Origin: a virus
Length of the DNA: 47,255 nt
IMG/VR virus record: IMGVR_UViG_3300027741_000108
Span: 1 to 47,255 of that record
Strand: one strand, 5' to 3'
In this document: piece by piece, positions 4,165 to 12,518 of the stretch
How the letters are laid out: each line of letters begins with the position of its first letter
How positions within the stretch are numbered: position 1 is the stretch's first letter
The notes under the pieces: generated by a model
The model's input: only the letters and a program-made list of their open reading frames with translations
What the model was told of the DNA's origin: nothing
The model's database searches: none
Translations under genes and position numbers: made by a program

Positions 4165-4178
4165 AGTGTAAGTGTCGT

Positions 4179-4709
4179 CTATTTTAAAAATTCTCGAATG
4201 TCTAAAGAAAATTTAATAGAATTTATTTTATGAACTCCAATTAAATAAAGCACAAAACTAGCAACACTACTACCACGACCTACACCCAAAACAATATTAT
4301 GTTCACGCATTGTGTCAACAAAATATTTTAAATATTTTAAAAGAGAAAACAAGTCTCTTTCTTGAAAGAGAATCAATTCTTCTGCGACCCTCTGCAATTC
4401 TACTTGATCTTTACATTGTTCCAATATCCATCGTGCAATGTCAAAATTTATGTATTTGTCAGGCATCAACCAATACTCTCTATGCAACCTATCATAATGA
4501 TCTACATCAATATTCAATGATTCATAAATTTGCAAATGGGTTAAGTCGGCGTGTAAATCATTAATACTTTTATTATATTGTCCACCGTCTTTCACCAATA
4601 ACTTGGACATATCCAAATTAGGGTTCTGATATAACATTTCAAAAATGGCGTCGGTCGTAACGTACCTTCTACCATATTGATCAATTTCAGCTGATATCAA
4701 TGGTTCCAT
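4179..4709 (-). CDS. DnaE-like polymerase fragment, N-terminal (fingers/palm entry) piece
   Basis: 176 residues. The C-terminal 35 residues (about 142-176), with VGRGSSVASF, LIGVHKINSIKF and IREFLK, align by eye with the bacterial DNA polymerase III alpha block [25 protein letters not shown]...FERFLN. The preceding helix (ELILFQERDLFSLLKYLKYF) matches the region just before it. The protein stops exactly where DnaE would continue to its MPDFDVDF catalytic segment, which is encoded separately at 16707-17297. There is no PHP or exonuclease domain. The start is the ATG at 4709 (a TTG lies just upstream), and it overlaps the preceding gene by 23 nt. Confidence 0.7.
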   Translation of the reverse strand: MEPLISAEIDQYGRRYVTTDAIFEMLYQNPNLDMSKLLVKDGGQYNKSINDLHADLTHLQIYESLNIDVDHYDRLHREYWLMPDKYINFDIARWILEQCKDQVELQRVAEELILFQERDLFSLLKYLKYFVDTMREHNIVLGVGRGSSVASFVLYLIGVHKINSIKFSLDIREFLK

Positions 4710-4920
4710 CAAAATTTGGATTATTTTTTCTAGCTTCGGCCATGATCAAATCATTTCTTCTTTGAATTTCTAATTGATAATCGCCCACCAACATGCTGAG
4801 TTGTCCAGCAACATCGCTGCCATATCTCTGTGCTTGATATAGTCGTTTAATTAATTCGCCATGTTTTTTGTGCAAATCTGCATCAGTTAAACTTGATAGA
4901 TCAGGTGATAGTGGGTGCAT
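4687..4920 (-). CDS. Conserved small helical phage protein
   Basis: 77 residues starting MHPLSPDLSSLTDADLHKKH, predicted all-helical and probably a coiled-coil hairpin (residues 15-65). The MHPL...DLSxLxD opening is one I recall from unnamed cyanophage proteins. It overlaps the DnaE-like fragment downstream, which suggests coupled translation. Function unknown. Confidence 0.65.
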   Translation of the reverse strand: MHPLSPDLSSLTDADLHKKHGELIKRLYQAQRYGSDVAGQLSMLVGDYQLEIQRRNDLIMAEARKNNPNFDGTIDIS

Positions 4921-4924
4921 ATAC

Positions 4925-5059
4925 CTATTCTGGAATAATATCTATTAATTGTTCAAGCAATTTTTTTGCCATTTCGATTCTACCCGACGAAATGAGATCA
5001 AGAATCTCATTTAAAACCAGGAGAATGTCTGAGTTTTGATTCATTAGATTTGTTGCCAT
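4925..5059 (-). CDS. Tiny helical hypothetical protein
   Basis: 44 residues starting MATNLMNQNSDILLVLNEIL. Amphipathic helices with regular Leu/Ile spacing. It is the first gene downstream of the promoter at 5069-5096, and the 77-aa gene starts 4 nt after its stop. A GTG lies one codon upstream of the ATG used here. Function unknown. Confidence 0.5.
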   Translation of the reverse strand: MATNLMNQNSDILLVLNEILDLISSGRIEMAKKLLEQLIDIIPE

Positions 5060-5068
5060 CACTTGTTA

Positions 5069-5096
5069 AGTATAGCAACAAATTGTCAAAAGTCAA
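5069..5096 (-). promoter_or_regulatory. Sigma70-like early/middle promoter
   Basis: -35 TTGACT (5091-5096), 16-bp spacer, -10 TATACT (5069-5074), 9 bp before the ATG at 5059. It begins directly after the end of the tail-fibre island and would drive the genes for the 44-aa protein, the 77-aa protein and the DnaE fragment. Confidence 0.7.
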
Positions 5097-5102
5097 CTAT
5101 TT

Positions 5103-5675
5103 TTAAGCAATTTTGGCAATCCAAAAATTAACGCCATCGGCCGTTGAAAACTCAAACATATAGTCTCCTATTACAGGAAATGATAGTTCTCTGGTTGCTG
5201 TATTGTATCCAACGATACTGTCTAACCCATAAACTACAGTTACTGGCAATATAATCAAATCTACTAAATTTTTAATAGATAACCAAAGTCTCAATGATGA
5301 ATAAACACCAATAGTAGTAGGGAAATCAACTAGATTCAAATCAATTCTGCCAAGAGTGCTAATTTTTTGAATATTTGAGTCCAAAAAGCTTACGCTAACA
5401 GCACCTGCTTTGGGCCCCAGATCTGTAAAAGAATATGTATTTGATCTTAACTGAGCTCGATATAATATATTGCCATTTAGATCATTATTCAGTGTCGAGC
5501 CAACTAATGCAGACTTCAAAATTGCATTTTTTTGCAGGTCCTCTATCTCTGACTTGGCAAAGGCTAAGTTGGTTTTAATATTAGAAAAATTATCTCTAAA
5601 ACCTTGACTGTCGTTGTCTTGACCAGCAATAGGATAATTACCATCGATGTTATTGGGGTTGATATTACAAGGCAT
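5103..5675 (-). CDS. Virion structural protein, tail-appendage type
   Basis: 190 residues starting MPCNINPNNIDGNYPIAGQD. I start at 5675 because the upstream gene ends at 5677 and a GGAG lies 12 nt before the ATG. The block AGQDNDSQGFRDNFSNIKTN, followed by a helix (LAFAKSEIEDLQKNA), is a conserved opening of appendage proteins in uncultured T4-like phages (recalled). The rest is beta-rich. It is the last gene of the fibre island and probably shares the late transcript of the large fibre upstream. Confidence 0.7.
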   Translation of the reverse strand: MPCNINPNNIDGNYPIAGQDNDSQGFRDNFSNIKTNLAFAKSEIEDLQKNAILKSALVGSTLNNDLNGNILYRAQLRSNTYSFTDLGPKAGAVSVSFLDSNIQKISTLGRIDLNLVDFPTTIGVYSSLRLWLSIKNLVDLIILPVTVVYGLDSIVGYNTATRELSFPVIGDYMFEFSTADGVNFWIAKIA

Positions 5676-5676
5676 G

Positions 5677-8535
5677 TTAAATGAATACTCCAGTTTTTGG
5701 GAATTTAATATATTTATCCTCGACATTAGGATCTAGATAAAATCTATCTTTATTACTAACAAATCTAGTTGAGTCGGAATCAAAAGTTGTTGGTTTTCTA
5801 TTTTTTATGATTTGCAAGTTTGTAAGAGGATCTATAATCAATGTGTTTTTAAATTCTCTCCAAGTTATATCATAGCCATGTATGGCATAATGATCCAAAC
5901 ATAGATTTTTCCCCCCATATATATTTCCATTTTTTATAGTAACAATATCGCCCGGGGCAGACAATTCTAATACGTTCAAAAATAAATATCCGTTACTATC
6001 AATAGTTATTTGATAAACCGCCGATCTTTCATTATCTGCTCCGGTTATCAATTGGTTCAAATAGCCTGGTATGATTCTATTATTTGCATAATCAACCCAA
6101 CCAGTTGAATAGTCATTGATGGAAATATAACCGCTACTTTGAATTAAAATTACAGTATCACCATCAACAACGCTATTTTGGCCATCAAAAATATTTCCCG
6201 CAATTAAATCAGAAACCAATTTACCCGATATTTGTGAATAGGTTGCATCAATAGCCCAATCAACGTTGCCTTTTATTCTATAACATTCAGCAACACTGAC
6301 TTTTTGGTCAAGATAACACGGGATTCCTTGAATAAATTGTTTTTTGGTAATGTCATAGTATTTGCTCAGAACATTGTCCAATAGATACCTATCCGTAGTA
6401 AATTCAATATTATTAAATAACACATTATTGGATTTGAGTCGGTATGCTATTGTTTTGCTGCCGCCAGGCTCAGTATAAGCCAAAACAACAGCCGGAATAT
6501 ATCCTAAAGGCGGATCAAAGAGTGAAATAGAATTGGGGTTTGGTTGCATTGACGTCATCCATTTTGGTAATGGGGATTTTTCATTGATTGGAATATGATC
6601 AATAACTTGTTTACTCATATTCCCCAAACCATTGGGACATAACTTGGTTTGATCAACACCATTAACAGAATAAAAATTACTGAGTTTTCCCAAATTGATA
6701 TCCTGTTGTGGATATTTTTTCAACCCAGTTTTTGAATCAACACCGAGTTGACTATCAATGACATCCAAGTACACGACCTCATAAATTATATTATAGTTTT
6801 CATCAATCGCGGCTGCTGTTTTTACTTCACCAAAAGTAAATGTCTTGGAATAATGATTTTTTTCAAGAGCCGGCAAATATATTGATAAATCCCCAGGGGG
6901 TAACCCTGTTAAAAATAAAAATTCCAAATAGTGTTTTTTTCCCCACCAAGGAACAGCTGATCGATATATCAGATTACTGGGAAAATAATATTCACTTTCA
7001 ATTATTGATTTTAAAAATTTTCTCTGCACTTTATTTGGCATTGCTCTTAGATATAGGGAATCATAAGGCTCCTTGTAAGACACATTTACTCTTAGGTTGA
7101 ATGTTTTTTCACTATAATATTTAAAATACAGATCATGAGCAATGACTGTGAATGAATATTGTCTATCAAAGAGCGTTTTGTCTTGATCCAAAGTTAGACT
7201 TCCACCATCCAGGCTGAAATGCCTAAAACTGACCCTGCCCGAAAGTTCCCCGGTAGATAGCAACACTACTCCTTGTGGAGTTCTACTATATTTCAATGGA
7301 CTTAATCTATAATATAATTTAGAATTAGTGTTCGTCACTGCCTGCACTCTTAAACTACTAAAGCTTCCATTATCTATAGTTCCCAAATCACTATCAGTAA
7401 TCCAATGAATTTCATCGTTATAGTCCCCAAGAACCGTCATATTGAAATTTGTTTTTGGTCCAGAGTACTCTCTACCCAACTTTTTTCTAGCATATATTTG
7501 AAAAGTATGATTGGAATTTGTTTTATTTTGCTTAAAAAAGTGCCCAGTATACCAACCTGATTGATTGTTCAGGCCTATGCCAACTGGCATTGGGTAGTCA
7601 CTAGAATCAAGACCGCCTTGACCAAAACCAACTTCTCCATCCTGATCAAATCCACCATTGTCTGGACTAGTTATTTCATAATAAATTTCATCATTATCCA
7701 GATCCCTTGCATTAAATTTAAATGCAAAGTTGGTATCATGCCTTGACAACTCCATTCTCACTTGCGGCAAAGTTTTGGATTCTTCAATGATATAGGGCAA
7801 GTAACCATTTTGTGAAGCATCTAATTTAGAAAAATCATAGGATAAAGGATATGTTCTATCAGCCCGCACAGTATAGTTCCTGGGTAGTACTTCTATTTTA
7901 TAAGATTTTCTATTTTGATAGATCCCGTCATCTGCCTCCATAGTGAATTGATAAACACTGGCATTTTGTGGTCTAGTGGCATCTAAGAAATACATGTCCC
8001 ATGCAGATTTGTCCCAACCATATTGGTTTAATGTTTGGTCTGTTATTTTATTACCAAGAAACCCATGAATTTTTCCATCAGAACTGATAGTTATTCCCTC
8101 TGGGATTTTTCCATTGGCTAAGCGCCATGTTATTGGCCTAATTTGCCCAAAAGTGTCTAAATTGATCTGATGGAAAAACTTTTCACCATCTATAAAAGTT
8201 CCTAAAAATTCTTCTTCTGGAACAATACCTATATTTGTCAATGTTGAAACTATAAAATTAAATGTCTTATCGGCAATGACACCAGAACTATCCCAGGCTC
8301 TAACTGTAAATTCAATTATTGAATCAAATTCTTTTGTGTTAGATTTAAGTGTATTAGCAACCCCATATAACAAACCCGAATCTGATAATTTTACACCTGT
8401 TGGAATACTTCCAGAAATCATTGAATAGAAAACCTCAGAAGACTCCGTCGACTTAGCTTTTAATTGAATTTCAAAGTAAGCGTGTTCCTCGATGATTCCT
8501 AAACTATTGGGTGTTATCCATTTTAATTTTCTCAT
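5677..8535 (-). CDS. Large tail fibre/appendage protein with Ig-like domains
   Basis: 952 residues starting MRKLKWITPNSLGIIEEHAY. Several putative-Ig (cadherin-like) repeats are visible, with the signature of short predicates such as GSIPTGVKLSDSGLLYGV, GKIPEGITISSDGKIHG and LSTGELSGRV, each ending a beta-sandwich of about 90-110 residues. These cover roughly the first half; the C-terminal half is beta-rich and unrecognised. Such proteins form distal virion fibres that bind host surfaces. A frame extending to 8580 begins with TTG inside the late promoter, so the ATG at 8535 is used. No strong ribosome site is visible. Confidence 0.75.
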   Translation of the reverse strand: MRKLKWITPNSLGIIEEHAYFEIQLKAKSTESSEVFYSMISGSIPTGVKLSDSGLLYGVANTLKSNTKEFDSIIEFTVRAWDSSGVIADKTFNFIVSTLTNIGIVPEEEFLGTFIDGEKFFHQINLDTFGQIRPITWRLANGKIPEGITISSDGKIHGFLGNKITDQTLNQYGWDKSAWDMYFLDATRPQNASVYQFTMEADDGIYQNRKSYKIEVLPRNYTVRADRTYPLSYDFSKLDASQNGYLPYIIEESKTLPQVRMELSRHDTNFAFKFNARDLDNDEIYYEITSPDNGGFDQDGEVGFGQGGLDSSDYPMPVGIGLNNQSGWYTGHFFKQNKTNSNHTFQIYARKKLGREYSGPKTNFNMTVLGDYNDEIHWITDSDLGTIDNGSFSSLRVQAVTNTNSKLYYRLSPLKYSRTPQGVVLLSTGELSGRVSFRHFSLDGGSLTLDQDKTLFDRQYSFTVIAHDLYFKYYSEKTFNLRVNVSYKEPYDSLYLRAMPNKVQRKFLKSIIESEYYFPSNLIYRSAVPWWGKKHYLEFLFLTGLPPGDLSIYLPALEKNHYSKTFTFGEVKTAAAIDENYNIIYEVVYLDVIDSQLGVDSKTGLKKYPQQDINLGKLSNFYSVNGVDQTKLCPNGLGNMSKQVIDHIPINEKSPLPKWMTSMQPNPNSISLFDPPLGYIPAVVLAYTEPGGSKTIAYRLKSNNVLFNNIEFTTDRYLLDNVLSKYYDITKKQFIQGIPCYLDQKVSVAECYRIKGNVDWAIDATYSQISGKLVSDLIAGNIFDGQNSVVDGDTVILIQSSGYISINDYSTGWVDYANNRIIPGYLNQLITGADNERSAVYQITIDSNGYLFLNVLELSAPGDIVTIKNGNIYGGKNLCLDHYAIHGYDITWREFKNTLIIDPLTNLQIIKNRKPTTFDSDSTRFVSNKDRFYLDPNVEDKYIKFPKTGVFI

Positions 8536-8605: not shown

Positions 8606-8613
8606 TATAAATA
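8606..8613 (+). promoter_or_regulatory. T4-type late promoter box (plus)
   Basis: Exact TATAAATA on the plus strand, 27 bp before the ATG at 8641. It would drive the radical SAM cassette at the same time as the divergent tail-fibre genes. Confidence 0.6.
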
Positions 8614-8640
8614 ATTATATATTTTTATTACTTAGATATT

Positions 8641-9153
8641 ATGACTATTAAAACTAGAGGAAGTGGTGCTTTATCCATCAGTGAAATTGCTGCCGAAATA
8701 GGTCCAGGCACAGCAACCAATTTAGCTTTTTTACGTGACCAAATACTTCCCGAAATATGGGGGAAACCGCTGGCACCAATGTCCATATTTTATGGATTGA
8801 CTTACTATCAAAATTATATGCGTGGTAATTGCAATAATGGTAATTGCGGTGGAGCGACTGGTACTACGAATTGCGCAAATTGTGACGCCAGACCATGGTT
8901 ACAACGAGCTTGTAATAGTCCATCTCCGCCACAATATCAATGTTCAGCTTGCGCCTGCAAGAAAGAATGGTGGGAAGTGCTAGTAGATTTTTTTGTCGCC
9001 ATAGTTGTCGTTGCCGCCGTATATTGGGCCTATTCGACTGGTGTTGGAGGACTATTAGATCCAGTAACAACAGCCAACGCCTTGGACTCAGCAATTAACA
9101 TGGAGGCGGGGACGTCTTCGAAAATTTTGAATGTTGGAGCAACCTTAGCTTAA
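8641..9153 (+). CDS. Cys-rich appendage-like protein, candidate substrate of the radical SAM enzyme
   Basis: 170 residues. Residues 5-58 (TRGSGALSISEIAAEIG ... MSIFYGLTYY) follow the short 'xLSxSEIxxEfG...lS.fYG' opening common in phage virion and appendage proteins (recalled). Residues 61-107 form a Gly/Asn/Cys-rich tract with eight cysteines at about 64, 69, 78, 81, 91, 101, 104 and 106, including NCNNGNC, NCANC and CSACAC. A single hydrophobic segment lies at about 112-131, then a small-residue-rich tail. The next gene encodes a radical SAM/SPASM enzyme, which makes this tract a plausible modification site. That is inference; zinc binding or disulfides are alternatives. Confidence 0.75.
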   Translation: MTIKTRGSGALSISEIAAEIGPGTATNLAFLRDQILPEIWGKPLAPMSIFYGLTYYQNYMRGNCNNGNCGGATGTTNCANCDARPWLQRACNSPSPPQYQCSACACKKEWWEVLVDFFVAIVVVAAVYWAYSTGVGGLLDPVTTANALDSAINMEAGTSSKILNVGATLA

Positions 9154-9180
9154 TTAAACTAAACACTATCAAAAAACATT

Positions 9181-10659
9181 ATGAAATTTCAAATCACGGC
9201 AGAAAAAAATTTTTCTGACAAAAAAACATTCTACTACGACAATGAGCTTAATATCATTAGTGATGAATTTGATAAAATTTTAGGGCCTTCTGATCAGTTA
9301 AAAAGCTATTTTGATGATATCCCAGTTAATTTAGAGGAGACCATACCATTTTCCAAAGATTTTCCGCTAAAAAAATCAAAATCAATTGATTTATTAAAGA
9401 TACAGCTAGGTTTGGGCTGTAATTATTCTTGTGAATATTGTAGTCAAAAATTTGTTGAAAGACCAACAGAAACTAGTAAAAAAGATATTGATGATTTCAT
9501 GTCCAAATTAGATGTCTTAGAATTTTCTGAACAAAAAGGACTAAAAATTGAGTTTTGGGGTGGAGAGCCATTGGTATATTGGAAAACATTGAAACCATTG
9601 GCTGAAAGATTATCAGAAAAATTTAAACAATGGGAAACTAAACCAATGTTTTCGATAATCACTAATGGATCTTTATTAACTGAGGAAATTTGTTCTTGGT
9701 TGATAGAATTTGATTTCTCCGTTGCTATTAGTCATGATGGCCCAAATCAATCTGTCAGAGGACCAGATCCATTTCTAGATCCAAAAAGAAAAAAAATAAT
9801 TTTAGATTTTTATAAAATAATGAAGCCGAAAAATAAAATTAGTTTTAATGCTATGTTGAATGGTAAAAATATTAGCAGAAAAGCTGTTTATGAATGGTTT
9901 TTTGAACTCACTGGAGACAAATCAGTTATCTTAGGTGAGGGCGAAATGGTTGATGCATATGACGATGATGGTATAAATAATTCTTTAACTAGTTTAGAGG
10001 ATCATTTTAAATTTAGGCAAAAATCTTTTGTGGATATATATATGTCAGATGGATATATTGGGTTTACCGGTATCAATGATAAGATAAATCAATTCACAAC
10101 CTCAGTAATATCACAAAAGTTAGAATCAAAATTTTTGGGACAGAAGTGTGGTATGGATAATCCAGGATCTATTGCTGTTGATTTAAAAGGAAATGTAATC
10201 ACTTGCCAAAATGTAAGTGCTTTAGAAACCAGTAAAAATGGCGAAAGTCATTTGGGTGGGAATTTAAGTGATTATGGTAATGTGGAATTTAAGTCAGTCA
10301 CACATTGGAAGTCTAGAGACAGTAAGATTAAATGTAGCGAATGCCCAGTACTACATCTTTGCAAGGGATCATGCATGTTCCTAGATGGTAATTATTGGGA
10401 TGTGTCATGTGAAAATGCATATTCAAATAATATAGCATTATTTGCATTGGCTTTTGCTAAACTCACCAATGGATATATTCCAACACTGATCAAGTCAGAC
10501 ACTCTACCATTACATAGGCAAGATATTTGGGGAACCATTTTTGATCACCAGGAAAGACAAAAGAAAAAAATTATCCCAATAAAAGTAATTAACAAAAAAG
10601 AAATGGTTATAAACGACGTGGAAGTTTATAGCAAATCAATATCAATACAGGAAGTATAA
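9181..10659 (+). CDS. Radical SAM/SPASM-domain enzyme, candidate peptide maturase
   Basis: 492 residues. The radical SAM core carries CNYSCEYC (C80, C84, C87; CX3CX2C), which binds the 4Fe-4S cluster that cleaves S-adenosylmethionine. GGEP (127-130) and the ITNGSLLT strand follow. A C-terminal SPASM domain has seven cysteines (about 323, 342, 385, 388, 394, 398, 410) in the family pattern G-x-V-x-x-C...CxxCx5Cx3C...C, binding auxiliary clusters. This family includes anSMEs and RiPP maturases that form thioether or carbon crosslinks in peptides. It lies 27 nt after the Cys-rich gene, on the same strand. All key residues are present, so it should be active. Confidence 0.9.
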   Translation: MKFQITAEKNFSDKKTFYYDNELNIISDEFDKILGPSDQLKSYFDDIPVNLEETIPFSKDFPLKKSKSIDLLKIQLGLGCNYSCEYCSQKFVERPTETSKKDIDDFMSKLDVLEFSEQKGLKIEFWGGEPLVYWKTLKPLAERLSEKFKQWETKPMFSIITNGSLLTEEICSWLIEFDFSVAISHDGPNQSVRGPDPFLDPKRKKIILDFYKIMKPKNKISFNAMLNGKNISRKAVYEWFFELTGDKSVILGEGEMVDAYDDDGINNSLTSLEDHFKFRQKSFVDIYMSDGYIGFTGINDKINQFTTSVISQKLESKFLGQKCGMDNPGSIAVDLKGNVITCQNVSALETSKNGESHLGGNLSDYGNVEFKSVTHWKSRDSKIKCSECPVLHLCKGSCMFLDGNYWDVSCENAYSNNIALFALAFAKLTNGYIPTLIKSDTLPLHRQDIWGTIFDHQERQKKKIIPIKVINKKEMVINDVEVYSKSISIQEV

Positions 10660-11384
10660 TGATTATCAAAAACAAAGAAACAAGTGCCGAATTAGACGCA
10701 TTACTTGATGTATTTAATCAAGTTCCCGAAGTGATCAAGGTAACAGTTTCTGATCCAACCGATGTACAACTTTTACAAATAGCATCAAACATAAGAACAT
10801 ATTCGGAGACCCCCACTCTCTTTGAATTTGATTTGAGATTTAATAACATAGATAAGACTATACAAATTTTGTGGCCAAAAGAGTTCTGGTCAAAATTCAA
10901 AACAACCATAATACCAGAACAAACTATTTTGGGATATTCAATAATACTCTCATCCTTCTTTTTCAATGATCGGCCTCAAGATACAGTGATATTTATGTAT
11001 GATTGGGATATTTCGGTATTACATGGGGGATATGTATTAGACCCGATTCCAGTCAGTGATTGGGACCCAAACTTAGTATTATTGACTGATTCTATAAAGA
11101 ACGATATTCCAAGAATTATTAGTTTTTCTGCCCACTACATCGTTGATGATGCTGTATTAGCTGATTTGGAAGAAGGTGCCATTGGCCTGACGGCATATAT
11201 ATCAACAAACATACCTTTAGCTATACTTCCTGGCGGCACACCGTCGACTGGGAAAAAGAGAGTGGAAGCATCAGTTCCCGTGGCCCTTTCATATTTCAAT
11301 GATCCTGAAAAATATAGATTTGTAACAGGTTGGTTTCAATCTTTTATTGATGAATACGATGCTTCAGTATCAACAGGACAATAA
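10659..11384 (+). CDS. Unknown protein coupled to the radical SAM enzyme
   Basis: 241 residues starting MIIKNKETSAELDALLDVFN. Its ATG overlaps the stop of the radical SAM gene by one base (TAATG), with AGGAAG upstream, so the two proteins are probably made together. It looks alpha/beta and soluble, with many aromatic and acidic residues and no Cys motif, Walker motif or membrane segment. I do not recognise it. By position it could be a substrate-recognition partner, a second modifying factor or an appendage chaperone; none of these is shown by the sequence. Confidence 0.75.
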   Translation: MIIKNKETSAELDALLDVFNQVPEVIKVTVSDPTDVQLLQIASNIRTYSETPTLFEFDLRFNNIDKTIQILWPKEFWSKFKTTIIPEQTILGYSIILSSFFFNDRPQDTVIFMYDWDISVLHGGYVLDPIPVSDWDPNLVLLTDSIKNDIPRIISFSAHYIVDDAVLADLEEGAIGLTAYISTNIPLAILPGGTPSTGKKRVEASVPVALSYFNDPEKYRFVTGWFQSFIDEYDASVSTGQ

Positions 11385-11426: not shown

Positions 11427-12518
11427 CTAGATTGCTGATATTACAAAGGCCAGCAATTCCTCATACCTAATACCATAAGTATCACCATTTTCATACTCAT
11501 CATAGCAAAACATTCCATAATCTTGGGCGACTAGTCCCTCTGATTCAAATGCTTGTTTTATTTCTTGAGCATATACCCCGATATGTATTCGGGCTTGGTT
11601 TCCTTTTTTTGACACTGAATCTTTAAATTTAAACGCTTTGATTAAACTTTTAATTTTAATAGCAACAGCTTTTTCAGCATCATTTAATGATCGACCCTGT
11701 TCTTTAAGTCGCGAGTCAGAAGTTTGAATTGAGCCTGATGCAGCATATATACCAGCCCATCTCTGACTTGGTCCTCCAAGTACATATGCATTATCCACTA
11801 CCGGAGAAAAACCAACAGACGGAACGACAACAACAGTTTTATTGCCAAAATAGATATTGCTTCCTTCACTGGTAATTGAATTGGTTGTGGATCCAACTGC
11901 TATGCTACTAACTACAATATTTGGGTTACCTTGTAGATTGGTAGCAGTGCCAGTTACTGAAATAGGCCAGATTCCCGAGGATCCAGCACCCGTGACGCTA
12001 GGAGCACCAACACTATTATAGGAAACTACAATTGCAGAACTACCATTGAATGTTGTTCCAGAAAATGCCCCATTTCCACTATTATTAAATGTAACTGAAT
12101 TGGTGGTGTTTCCACTGACCCCAATACCACCGGCGCCACCGCCCACAGCACTAATAACCCCATTGCTATTAATTAAAATTGTTGTACCATCAACTCTAAC
12201 CCCGCCTAATGTACTAGGGGAAGCTGTTGGTAATATGTATGACCCAGCAGCAGTTCGAATAATTCCACTGCTATTAATTAAAATTGTTGTACCATCAACC
12301 CTAACACCACCAAGTGCATTAGGCGTAGCCATTGGTAATATGTATGACCCGCCGCTGGCACCGCCAGAAACATAGTTTAACGAATTCCAAGGATTTACCC
12401 CATCACCAATTTTTAATTTGCCTGTATTATATTCAAAACCAGGCTCACCTTGAGCCAATACAGGGTTGGCGTCAGTCCAAGTTGCCGCCGCATCTCTTCT
12501 AAATTTGATTTTTGCCAC
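11427..12518 (-). CDS. Tail fibre with Mtd-like N-terminus and C-terminal S74 chaperone domain
   Basis: 363 residues. The N-terminus (RRDAAATWTDANPVLAQGEP, then GKLKIGDGVNPWNSL) is the short module found at the start of phage tropism and tail-fibre proteins. The middle is Gly/Ser/Thr/Asn-rich beta-helix-like sequence with an internal duplication (SYILP-A-P..LGGVRVDGTT twice). The C-terminal 97 residues start at SDSRLKEQ (S267) and resemble the Peptidase_S74 intramolecular chaperone, which trimerises the fibre and then cuts itself off before the Asp. The start is GTG at 12518 with GGAG upstream. Confidence 0.85.
   Translation of the reverse strand: MAKIKFRRDAAATWTDANPVLAQGEPGFEYNTGKLKIGDGVNPWNSLNYVSGGASGGSYILPMATPNALGGVRVDGTTILINSSGIIRTAAGSYILPTASPSTLGGVRVDGTTILINSNGVISAVGGGAGGIGVSGNTTNSVTFNNSGNGAFSGTTFNGSSAIVVSYNSVGAPSVTGAGSSGIWPISVTGTATNLQGNPNIVVSSIAVGSTTNSITSEGSNIYFGNKTVVVVPSVGFSPVVDNAYVLGGPSQRWAGIYAASGSIQTSDSRLKEQGRSLNDAEKAVAIKIKSLIKAFKFKDSVSKKGNQARIHIGVYAQEIKQAFESEGLVAQDYGMFCYDEYENGDTYGIRYEELLAFVISAI

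Follow-up and report, generated by a model that had tools for sequence, protein, structure and literature searches.

What does a radical S-adenosylmethionine (radical SAM) enzyme do among the tail fibre genes of an uncultured phage? This question is raised by a trio of genes in the IMG/VR virus record IMGVR_UViG_3300027741_000108, the whole stretch of which (47,255 bases by letter count) is hereafter called the window. The trio lies on the plus strand, is flanked by minus-strand genes, and consists of gene 1 (8641-9153, +; 170 amino acids), an appendage-type protein with a Cys-rich tract and the proposed substrate; gene 2 (9181-10659, +; 492 amino acids), a radical SAM/SPASM enzyme identified from Pfam, PHROGs, NCBIfam and an AlphaFold2 (AF2) model; and gene 3 (10659-11384, +; 241 amino acids), a proposed substrate-handling partner. 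An initial annotation, made from the letters alone, had described the minus-strand fibre surroundings, eight Cys within 43 residues and one hydrophobic helix in gene 1, an intact enzyme with a CX3CX2C motif and seven SPASM Cys, and an overlap of gene 3 with gene 2, and all of these were found again at the coordinates and beside the neighbours given, the overlap being a single base (10659). We consider it likely that the trio is a cassette for modifying a virion appendage, in which gene 2 would cross-link the tract of gene 1.

The tract occupies residues 62-107 of gene 1 (GNCNNGNC...NCANCD...WLQ..C...QCSACAC; 8824-8961, +), with Cys at residues 64, 69, 78, 81, 91, 101, 104 and 106, and its core is invariant in a six-way alignment. 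When 36 short forms were compared pairwise, Cys was the best-kept residue of the tract (0.91, versus 0.64 for N and 0.30 for A), although the scoring matrix rewards aligned Cys and biases this figure upward. The tract is followed by a hydrophobic stretch at residues 113-131 (8977-9033, +; mean hydropathy 2.29), possibly a membrane or hydrophobic-anchor helix. Much enlarged Cys repeats, with 18 and 21 Cys per 50 residues, are seen in two homologues (L061:7490-7972 and L082:2623-3120; loci of the comparison are designated by L and a number), and gene 1 of L027, a locus excluded from the counts because its enzyme is a duplicate, is disrupted by a frameshift inside the tract; the gene is intact in its near relatives L023 and L026.

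Gene 2 is a radical SAM protein by both Pfam (PF04055, 1.6e-9, 38.6 bits versus a gathering score of 29.5) and PHROGs (phrog_1802, 3.4e-59), and its CX3CX2C motif (C80/C84/C87; 9418-9441, +) is supported by the family alignment. SPASM domains carry the pattern CX9-15GX4C ... CX2CX5CX3C ... C, which appears here as C323-X13-G337-X4-C342, C385-X2-C388-X5-C394-X3-C398 and C410 (10147-10410, +). These seven Cys are invariant in 36 aligned family members; among the eleven Cys of the enzyme only C171 is not invariant. The AF2 model has a pLDDT of 90.5 and its nearest folds are CteB, anSME, ChlB, TigE and SuiB, the best Foldseek match being CteB (5why, 3.4e-12, TM 0.50 on the query), while the best solved relative by sequence profile is TigE (8vpo, 2.6e-21).

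The evidence that carries our reading is the pairing of tract and enzyme. In the forward direction, we started from the enzyme in a viral set, the best 80 of at least 509 stretches coding a gene 2 relative (E 1e-3, a loose threshold), and in bacterial genomes taken one per species, which gave 73 loci with a gene 2 relative. The family query was an alignment of gene 2 relatives, the 80 viral loci show 57-66% identity, and 6 loci below 150 bits and 16 duplicate enzymes are excluded from the forward counts. Under a strict rule, a tract open reading frame (ORF) was present in 51 of 67 viral and 38 of 67 genome loci, and in 0 of 80 control loci chosen through the window's terminase (1.0 Mb in total). 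This rule passed over real cases. A relaxed rule, which was drawn up in the knowledge of the cases missed and whose forward figures are biased upward, found the ORF in 62 of 67 viral loci and 50 of 67 genome loci (all unique), and where the flanks were complete the proportions were 35/37 and 41/50. The tract ORF was on the enzyme's strand in 114 cases and on the opposite strand in 3. The initial annotation had named gene 2 homologues occurring regularly without a Cys-rich neighbour as evidence against its proposal, and these counts are the outcome of that test. In the control, the relaxed rule found the tract in 1 of 80 loci, and none of the 80 had the enzyme, but these loci represent a different genome region unmatched for tail fibres, which counts against the comparison.

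The pairing also holds in the reverse direction. Among viral loci picked by the tract core, a set partly shared with the forward set and including the window's own contig, the enzyme was found in 66 of 67 (42 of 42 without near-copies), and the contig of the sole exception ends 156 bp downstream. A further set was picked by a DNA pattern for NCNCNC(N/D)C, blind to the enzyme, and comprised 120 loci, 105 in frame and 15 out of frame. The enzyme was present in 79 of the 105 in-frame loci, in 52/56 of those with at least 4 kb downstream (34/38 without near-copies), and in 51/52 when the tract was also C-terminal (33/34 without near-copies); for the out-of-frame loci it was present in 1/15, and in 0/7 of those of at least 8 kb. 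This result bears on the possibility that the radical SAM gene is a mere passenger that came to lie beside the tract by chance. Tail-fibre islands do carry many passengers, and the accessible part of a pelagimyophage study mentions a host-recognition cluster to which radical SAM cassettes have been added (PMC7029224). However, tract and enzyme predict each other in window-type viral contigs as well as in prophage-type loci, and with partner proteins of different kinds, against 1/80 in the control; hitch-hiking is thereby largely refuted and we regard it as highly improbable. A gene for a ribosomal candidate substrate is thus paired with a gene for a modifying enzyme, as in systems for ribosomally synthesized and post-translationally modified peptides (RiPPs), and because the genes pair we infer that gene 1 is the substrate. 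Co-occurrence strongly supports its tract as the part on which gene 2 would act.

The titles of the genome loci are often of Burkholderiales (Limnohabitans, Burkholderia, Polynucleobacter, Variovorax) or Rhodospirillaceae, and phage-type neighbours stand beside the enzyme in those inspected. Among 50,697 phage records, three matches cover most of the protein, namely Achromobacter phages JWF (two records) and 2-1 (one record), and seven further records match weakly over 22-31% of it. JWF gp30 aligns with 76% of gene 2 at 44% identity. In both phages, the enzyme lies two genes downstream of a tract fused to a Hint-type segment, and this tract in turn lies two genes past the central fibre/baseplate hub.

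We next consider the proteins that carry the tract. Tail-fibre PHROGs were matched by 7 of the 15 tract proteins tested (JWF gp28, L089, L008, L035, L337, L206 and L193), although L008, L035 and L337 had been picked because an S74-like tail was already seen, which weakens the count. Three layouts were distinguished. The window-type layout has an N-terminal domain, the core GNC.N.N...NC.NCD....LQ and a variable end; among 90 unique proteins of this type, the tract runs to the end in 36, a longer tail follows in 51, window gene 1 included, and S74 is assigned by a motif rule in 3. Peptidase_S74 is above the Pfam cutoff in L008, L035 and L337, the last of which belongs to the 51, and PHROGs matches these proteins to tail fibres and baseplate wedge proteins; two others of the 51, L219 and L297, match Hint PF05203, below and above the cutoff, respectively. 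In the C-terminal-tract layout, the protein is encoded some way 5' of the enzyme on the same strand; L089, L206 and L193 are of this type, and L125 has collagen repeats, whereas L105, L120 and L144, which share the layout, gave no tail match. Among 137 tract proteins lacking the core, the last Cys is followed by no more than 5 residues in 118 (median 0). In the Hint layout, represented by 10 unique proteins including JWF gp28, as well as by phage 2-1 and L297, the Hint-type segment begins at or just past the last tract Cys. Hint and S74 modules are self-cleaving families, and the tract would consequently be left at the C-terminus in these layouts if the modules cleave there, as we presume by analogy that they do. 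Taken together, the two-way pairing and the tail-fibre identity of several tract proteins agree with the earlier proposal of a SPASM maturase tied to a Cys-rich tract. The further proposal that the phage modifies its own appendage protein stands as regards the system and its substrate, and the modified product would be expected in virions.

Window gene 1 itself has no fibre domain, but its homologues L008, L035 and L337 do. It matches gene 1 of L008 at 3e-19 over the N-terminal part and the core, and the enzymes of L008 and L035 are the nearest rows to gene 2 in a tree of 133 enzymes, which was built by a quick search with a midpoint root, has several long branches, and bears automatic class labels that are wrong for some rows (e.g. 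L073, labelled none). Judged by its sequence, window gene 1 is a divergent member of the enzyme's partner class.

The same proteins admit a different interpretation, in which gene 1 is a RiPP precursor and its tract, once modified, is released to serve as a toxin, signal or metallophore instead of staying in a fibre. The short forms, of about 125-175 amino acids, do resemble small precursors encoded directly 5' of the enzyme, the nearest enzymes are RiPP maturases, and half of the tested tract proteins have no fibre match. In addition, the bacterial relative L139 (Ramlibacter; 4165-7681) adjoins a YcaO/nitroreductase protein and a below-cutoff ATP-grasp match, possibly a RiPP-type cluster; the YcaO neighbour counts equally in favour of the cross-linked appendage. 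On the other hand, the tract is joined to tail-fibre sequence in the seven proteins listed above, its place beyond the hub in JWF and 2-1 fits a structural part better, and neither an exporter nor a peptidase was noticed close to the enzyme, though no search was aimed at them. We therefore judge a released peptide quite unlikely. It is likewise unlikely, in our estimate, that the tract binds a metal or Fe-S cluster or forms disulfides while the enzyme performs other chemistry, such as formylglycine formation or epimerisation. Metal binding is known for CXC-rich tracts, anSME structures rank high among the fold matches, and the JWF enzyme gene is labelled anaerobic sulfatase-maturating enzyme in one record; nevertheless, the Cys are best kept while the rest of the tract varies, and inspection by eye of a six-row alignment revealed no conserved match to the consensus motif C/S-X-P/A-X-R.

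Several observations weigh against a cross-linked appendage. With regard to the enzyme, every NCBIfam score shown was under its curated cutoff: the nearest family, the PapB ranthipeptide maturase (NF047865), gave 2.1e-25 and 89.7 bits versus 340, and the second, QhpD (TIGR03906), gave 2.1e-22 and 79.4 bits versus 453, so that gene 2 is outside both families as they are defined. The first 70 residues of the model form three strands and one helix, unlike a complete leader-binding RiPP recognition element (RRE); this element is common, but not universal, in RiPP systems. With regard to the pairing, the two viral misses with full flanks are L065, whose variant core escaped the rule, and L009, a real exception with an enzyme and no tract nearby. 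Nine of the 50 full-flank genome loci lack the tract as well (L091, L133, L136-L141 and L152), five of which (L133, L136, L138, L139 and L152) form one tract-free clade in the tree, where only L139 had neighbours with Pfam matches. Where the in-frame tract was internal, the enzyme accompanied it at no more than 4 of 13 loci, and at 1 of 4 with at least 4 kb downstream. With regard to the partners, eight of the 15 tract proteins had no tail match in PHROGs (the window's, L144, L120, L105, L088, L046, L005 and L066), and none of Pfam, PHROGs and NCBIfam matched window gene 1 significantly. Its N-terminal domain shows weak likeness to other ORFs (best non-tract E 1e-4, next 0.013), and its 8 Cys are fewer than in most of the relatives listed. 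Because residues follow the tract, C-terminal exposure would fail for most of the 51 long-tail proteins among the 90 of window type; in window gene 1, the tract is followed by the hydrophobic stretch, with neither Hint nor S74, and terminal exposure is consequently inapplicable barring a cleavage of some other kind.

With these points taken into account, the appendage-modification cassette is envisaged as follows. Gene 1 would be a fibre-type appendage protein whose Cys-rich tract is the substrate, and gene 2 would act on it while the protein is still inside the infected cell. The product would most likely be C-S (thioether) cross-links from Cys to neighbouring Asn/Asp or other residues, as with PapB and QhpD; thioether chemistry is probable by analogy with these enzymes. 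Holding or presenting the substrate is the probable task of gene 3, as a dedicated partner. The tract would, in many other lineages, be a C-terminal fibre tip, either by its encoded position or through self-cleavage by Hint or S74. These patterns suggest that in many uncultured phages parts of the virion fibres are chemically remodelled by the phage itself. A broader view, which we put forward tentatively and with less than even confidence, is that there is a widespread class of tailed phages whose tail fibres contain a covalently cross-linked Cys element stitched by a dedicated SPASM enzyme, exposed in many as the C-terminal tip, and that in some lineages the chemistry is taken further by helpers (gene 3, oxygenases and halogenase-like flavoproteins).

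These candidate helper genes were compared across the loci. Gene 3 falls within a group of 32 unique and very divergent proteins, the window's included, that abut the end of the enzyme, with 12-24% identity to the window's in a 30-row alignment. It has two similar halves, which in some loci are two single-domain genes, and its AF2 model (pLDDT 78.4, pTM 0.57) likewise shows two similar alpha/beta halves. No family match was found in Pfam, PHROGs or NCBIfam, and no clear match to a solved structure (best Foldseek E 0.096), in structure comparisons that covered only residues 117-241 well. A RaiA-type (ribosome-bound) entry was rejected, as its VIA-align Z of 5.6 over 90 residues is in the uninformative range and CapZ rows tie with it. 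Gene 3 is a conserved, fast-evolving third gene without a recognisable fold. Profile comparison revealed no kinship of gene 3 with the JWF gp29-like, L211-like or L031-like proteins or with the 2-oxoglutarate (2OG) oxygenases, and among the accessory families compared the L211-like and L031-like proteins alone are related to each other. The 2OG-Fe(II) oxygenase-like cluster (30 unique) lies directly 5' of the enzyme in tail-fibre-type loci; of the members tested, L242:3837-4478 matches phrog_81 and L097:7256-7873 has no match. The JWF gp29-like proteins (13) also lie directly 5' of the enzyme, and a second, shorter radical SAM protein occupies this position at L120:6897-7985, L195:7139-8137 and L180:4096-5262.

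Of 100 unique window-type loci, 22 encode a Trp-halogenase-like flavoprotein 3' of the enzyme (L003:3702-5240, L023, L086:2196-3431 and 19 others; L003 and L027 confirmed by phrog_2928), and none of the 80 control loci does so. The distance is 0.6-1.9 kb in 21 loci and 6.9 kb in L009; in 10 it is within 0.75 kb, enough space for a single gene. There was no halogenase-like match in L279, the stretch of contig carrying the window's trio. The idea that the flavoprotein targets a core Trp is not supported, since the presence of W, Y or F in the core shows no link to the halogenase (W without it in 53, with it in 7).

The surroundings of the trio are those of a contractile-tailed phage, as the tail sheath and the terminase large subunit encoded in the window indicate. 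A 57,279-base IMG/VR contig carries gene 1, gene 2 and the terminase in fully identical form. On the minus strand, the trio is flanked by a gene with an immunoglobulin-like domain (PF05345; 5677-8580) and by a tail fibre gene with Mtd_N and Peptidase_S74 (11427-12518; Pfam and PHROGs). The exact TATAAATA box noted in the initial annotation is present at 8606-8613 (+), 27 nt 5' of the gene 1 ATG, and its placement fits a T4-type late promoter. However, the window has 8 matches where 4.07 are expected, and as many are reached in 8 of 100 shuffles; this count is statistically weak, and the box was rejected as proof of late expression, though the trio may be expressed late. Two short ORFs, at 4179-4712 (-) in the window and L009:5522-6100 (+), resemble by eye, in their motifs, pieces of a DnaE-type DNA polymerase III alpha subunit.

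No description of the tract/enzyme pairing was found in the open-access literature, preprints not being covered; the system is real and, within the literature searched, undescribed. If the proposed reaction occurs, radical-based cross-linking of a structural virion part would be undescribed in that literature and a new kind of modification for phage fibres, a recurrent unannotated Cys-tail motif would be explained, and SPASM enzymes acting on proteins instead of free peptides would be gained, more than 100 of them new and distinct (the tree has 133). If the broader view is also true, RiPP-like chemistry would be present on virions, where it would serve for receptor binding, piercing or surface reactivity. 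The system is directly testable, as two Achromobacter phage isolates carry it.

Finally, we compared the cassette with known systems. In existing records, phrog_1802, JWF and 2-1 label the enzyme as radical SAM or sulfatase-maturating, and the tract and its pairing are unmentioned in the records seen. PapB (NF047865) and CteB (5why, 5wgg) resemble gene 2 in combining radical SAM with a seven-Cys SPASM domain, and their Cys-rich ribosomal substrates are encoded next door. In contrast to these, no complete RRE is seen in the gene 2 model, and several of the candidate substrates are proteins of phage fibres instead of small free peptides; for PapB, the score far under the cutoff is a further difference. 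TigE (8vpo), the best relative by profile, is matched mainly in the SAM core (profile 58-222), and its product, cyclopropylglycine, is not implied for gene 2. QhpD, according to the accessible part of its description, is a SPASM enzyme that forms three Cys-to-Asp/Glu thioethers inside the protein subunit QhpC, promoted by QhpG, a flavoprotein of the operon (PMC7876137). QhpG beside QhpD recalls the halogenase-like flavoprotein beside the phage enzyme, although the window's own stretch has no such match, and QhpC is an enzyme subunit, unlike the phage partner proteins. Because gene 2 is near PapB, QhpD, TigE and CteB by profile and fold, and QhpD makes Cys thioethers in the part of that study available, protein thioether cross-linking can be proposed by analogy, and the cassette would behave like a SPASM maturase with a Cys-rich substrate.

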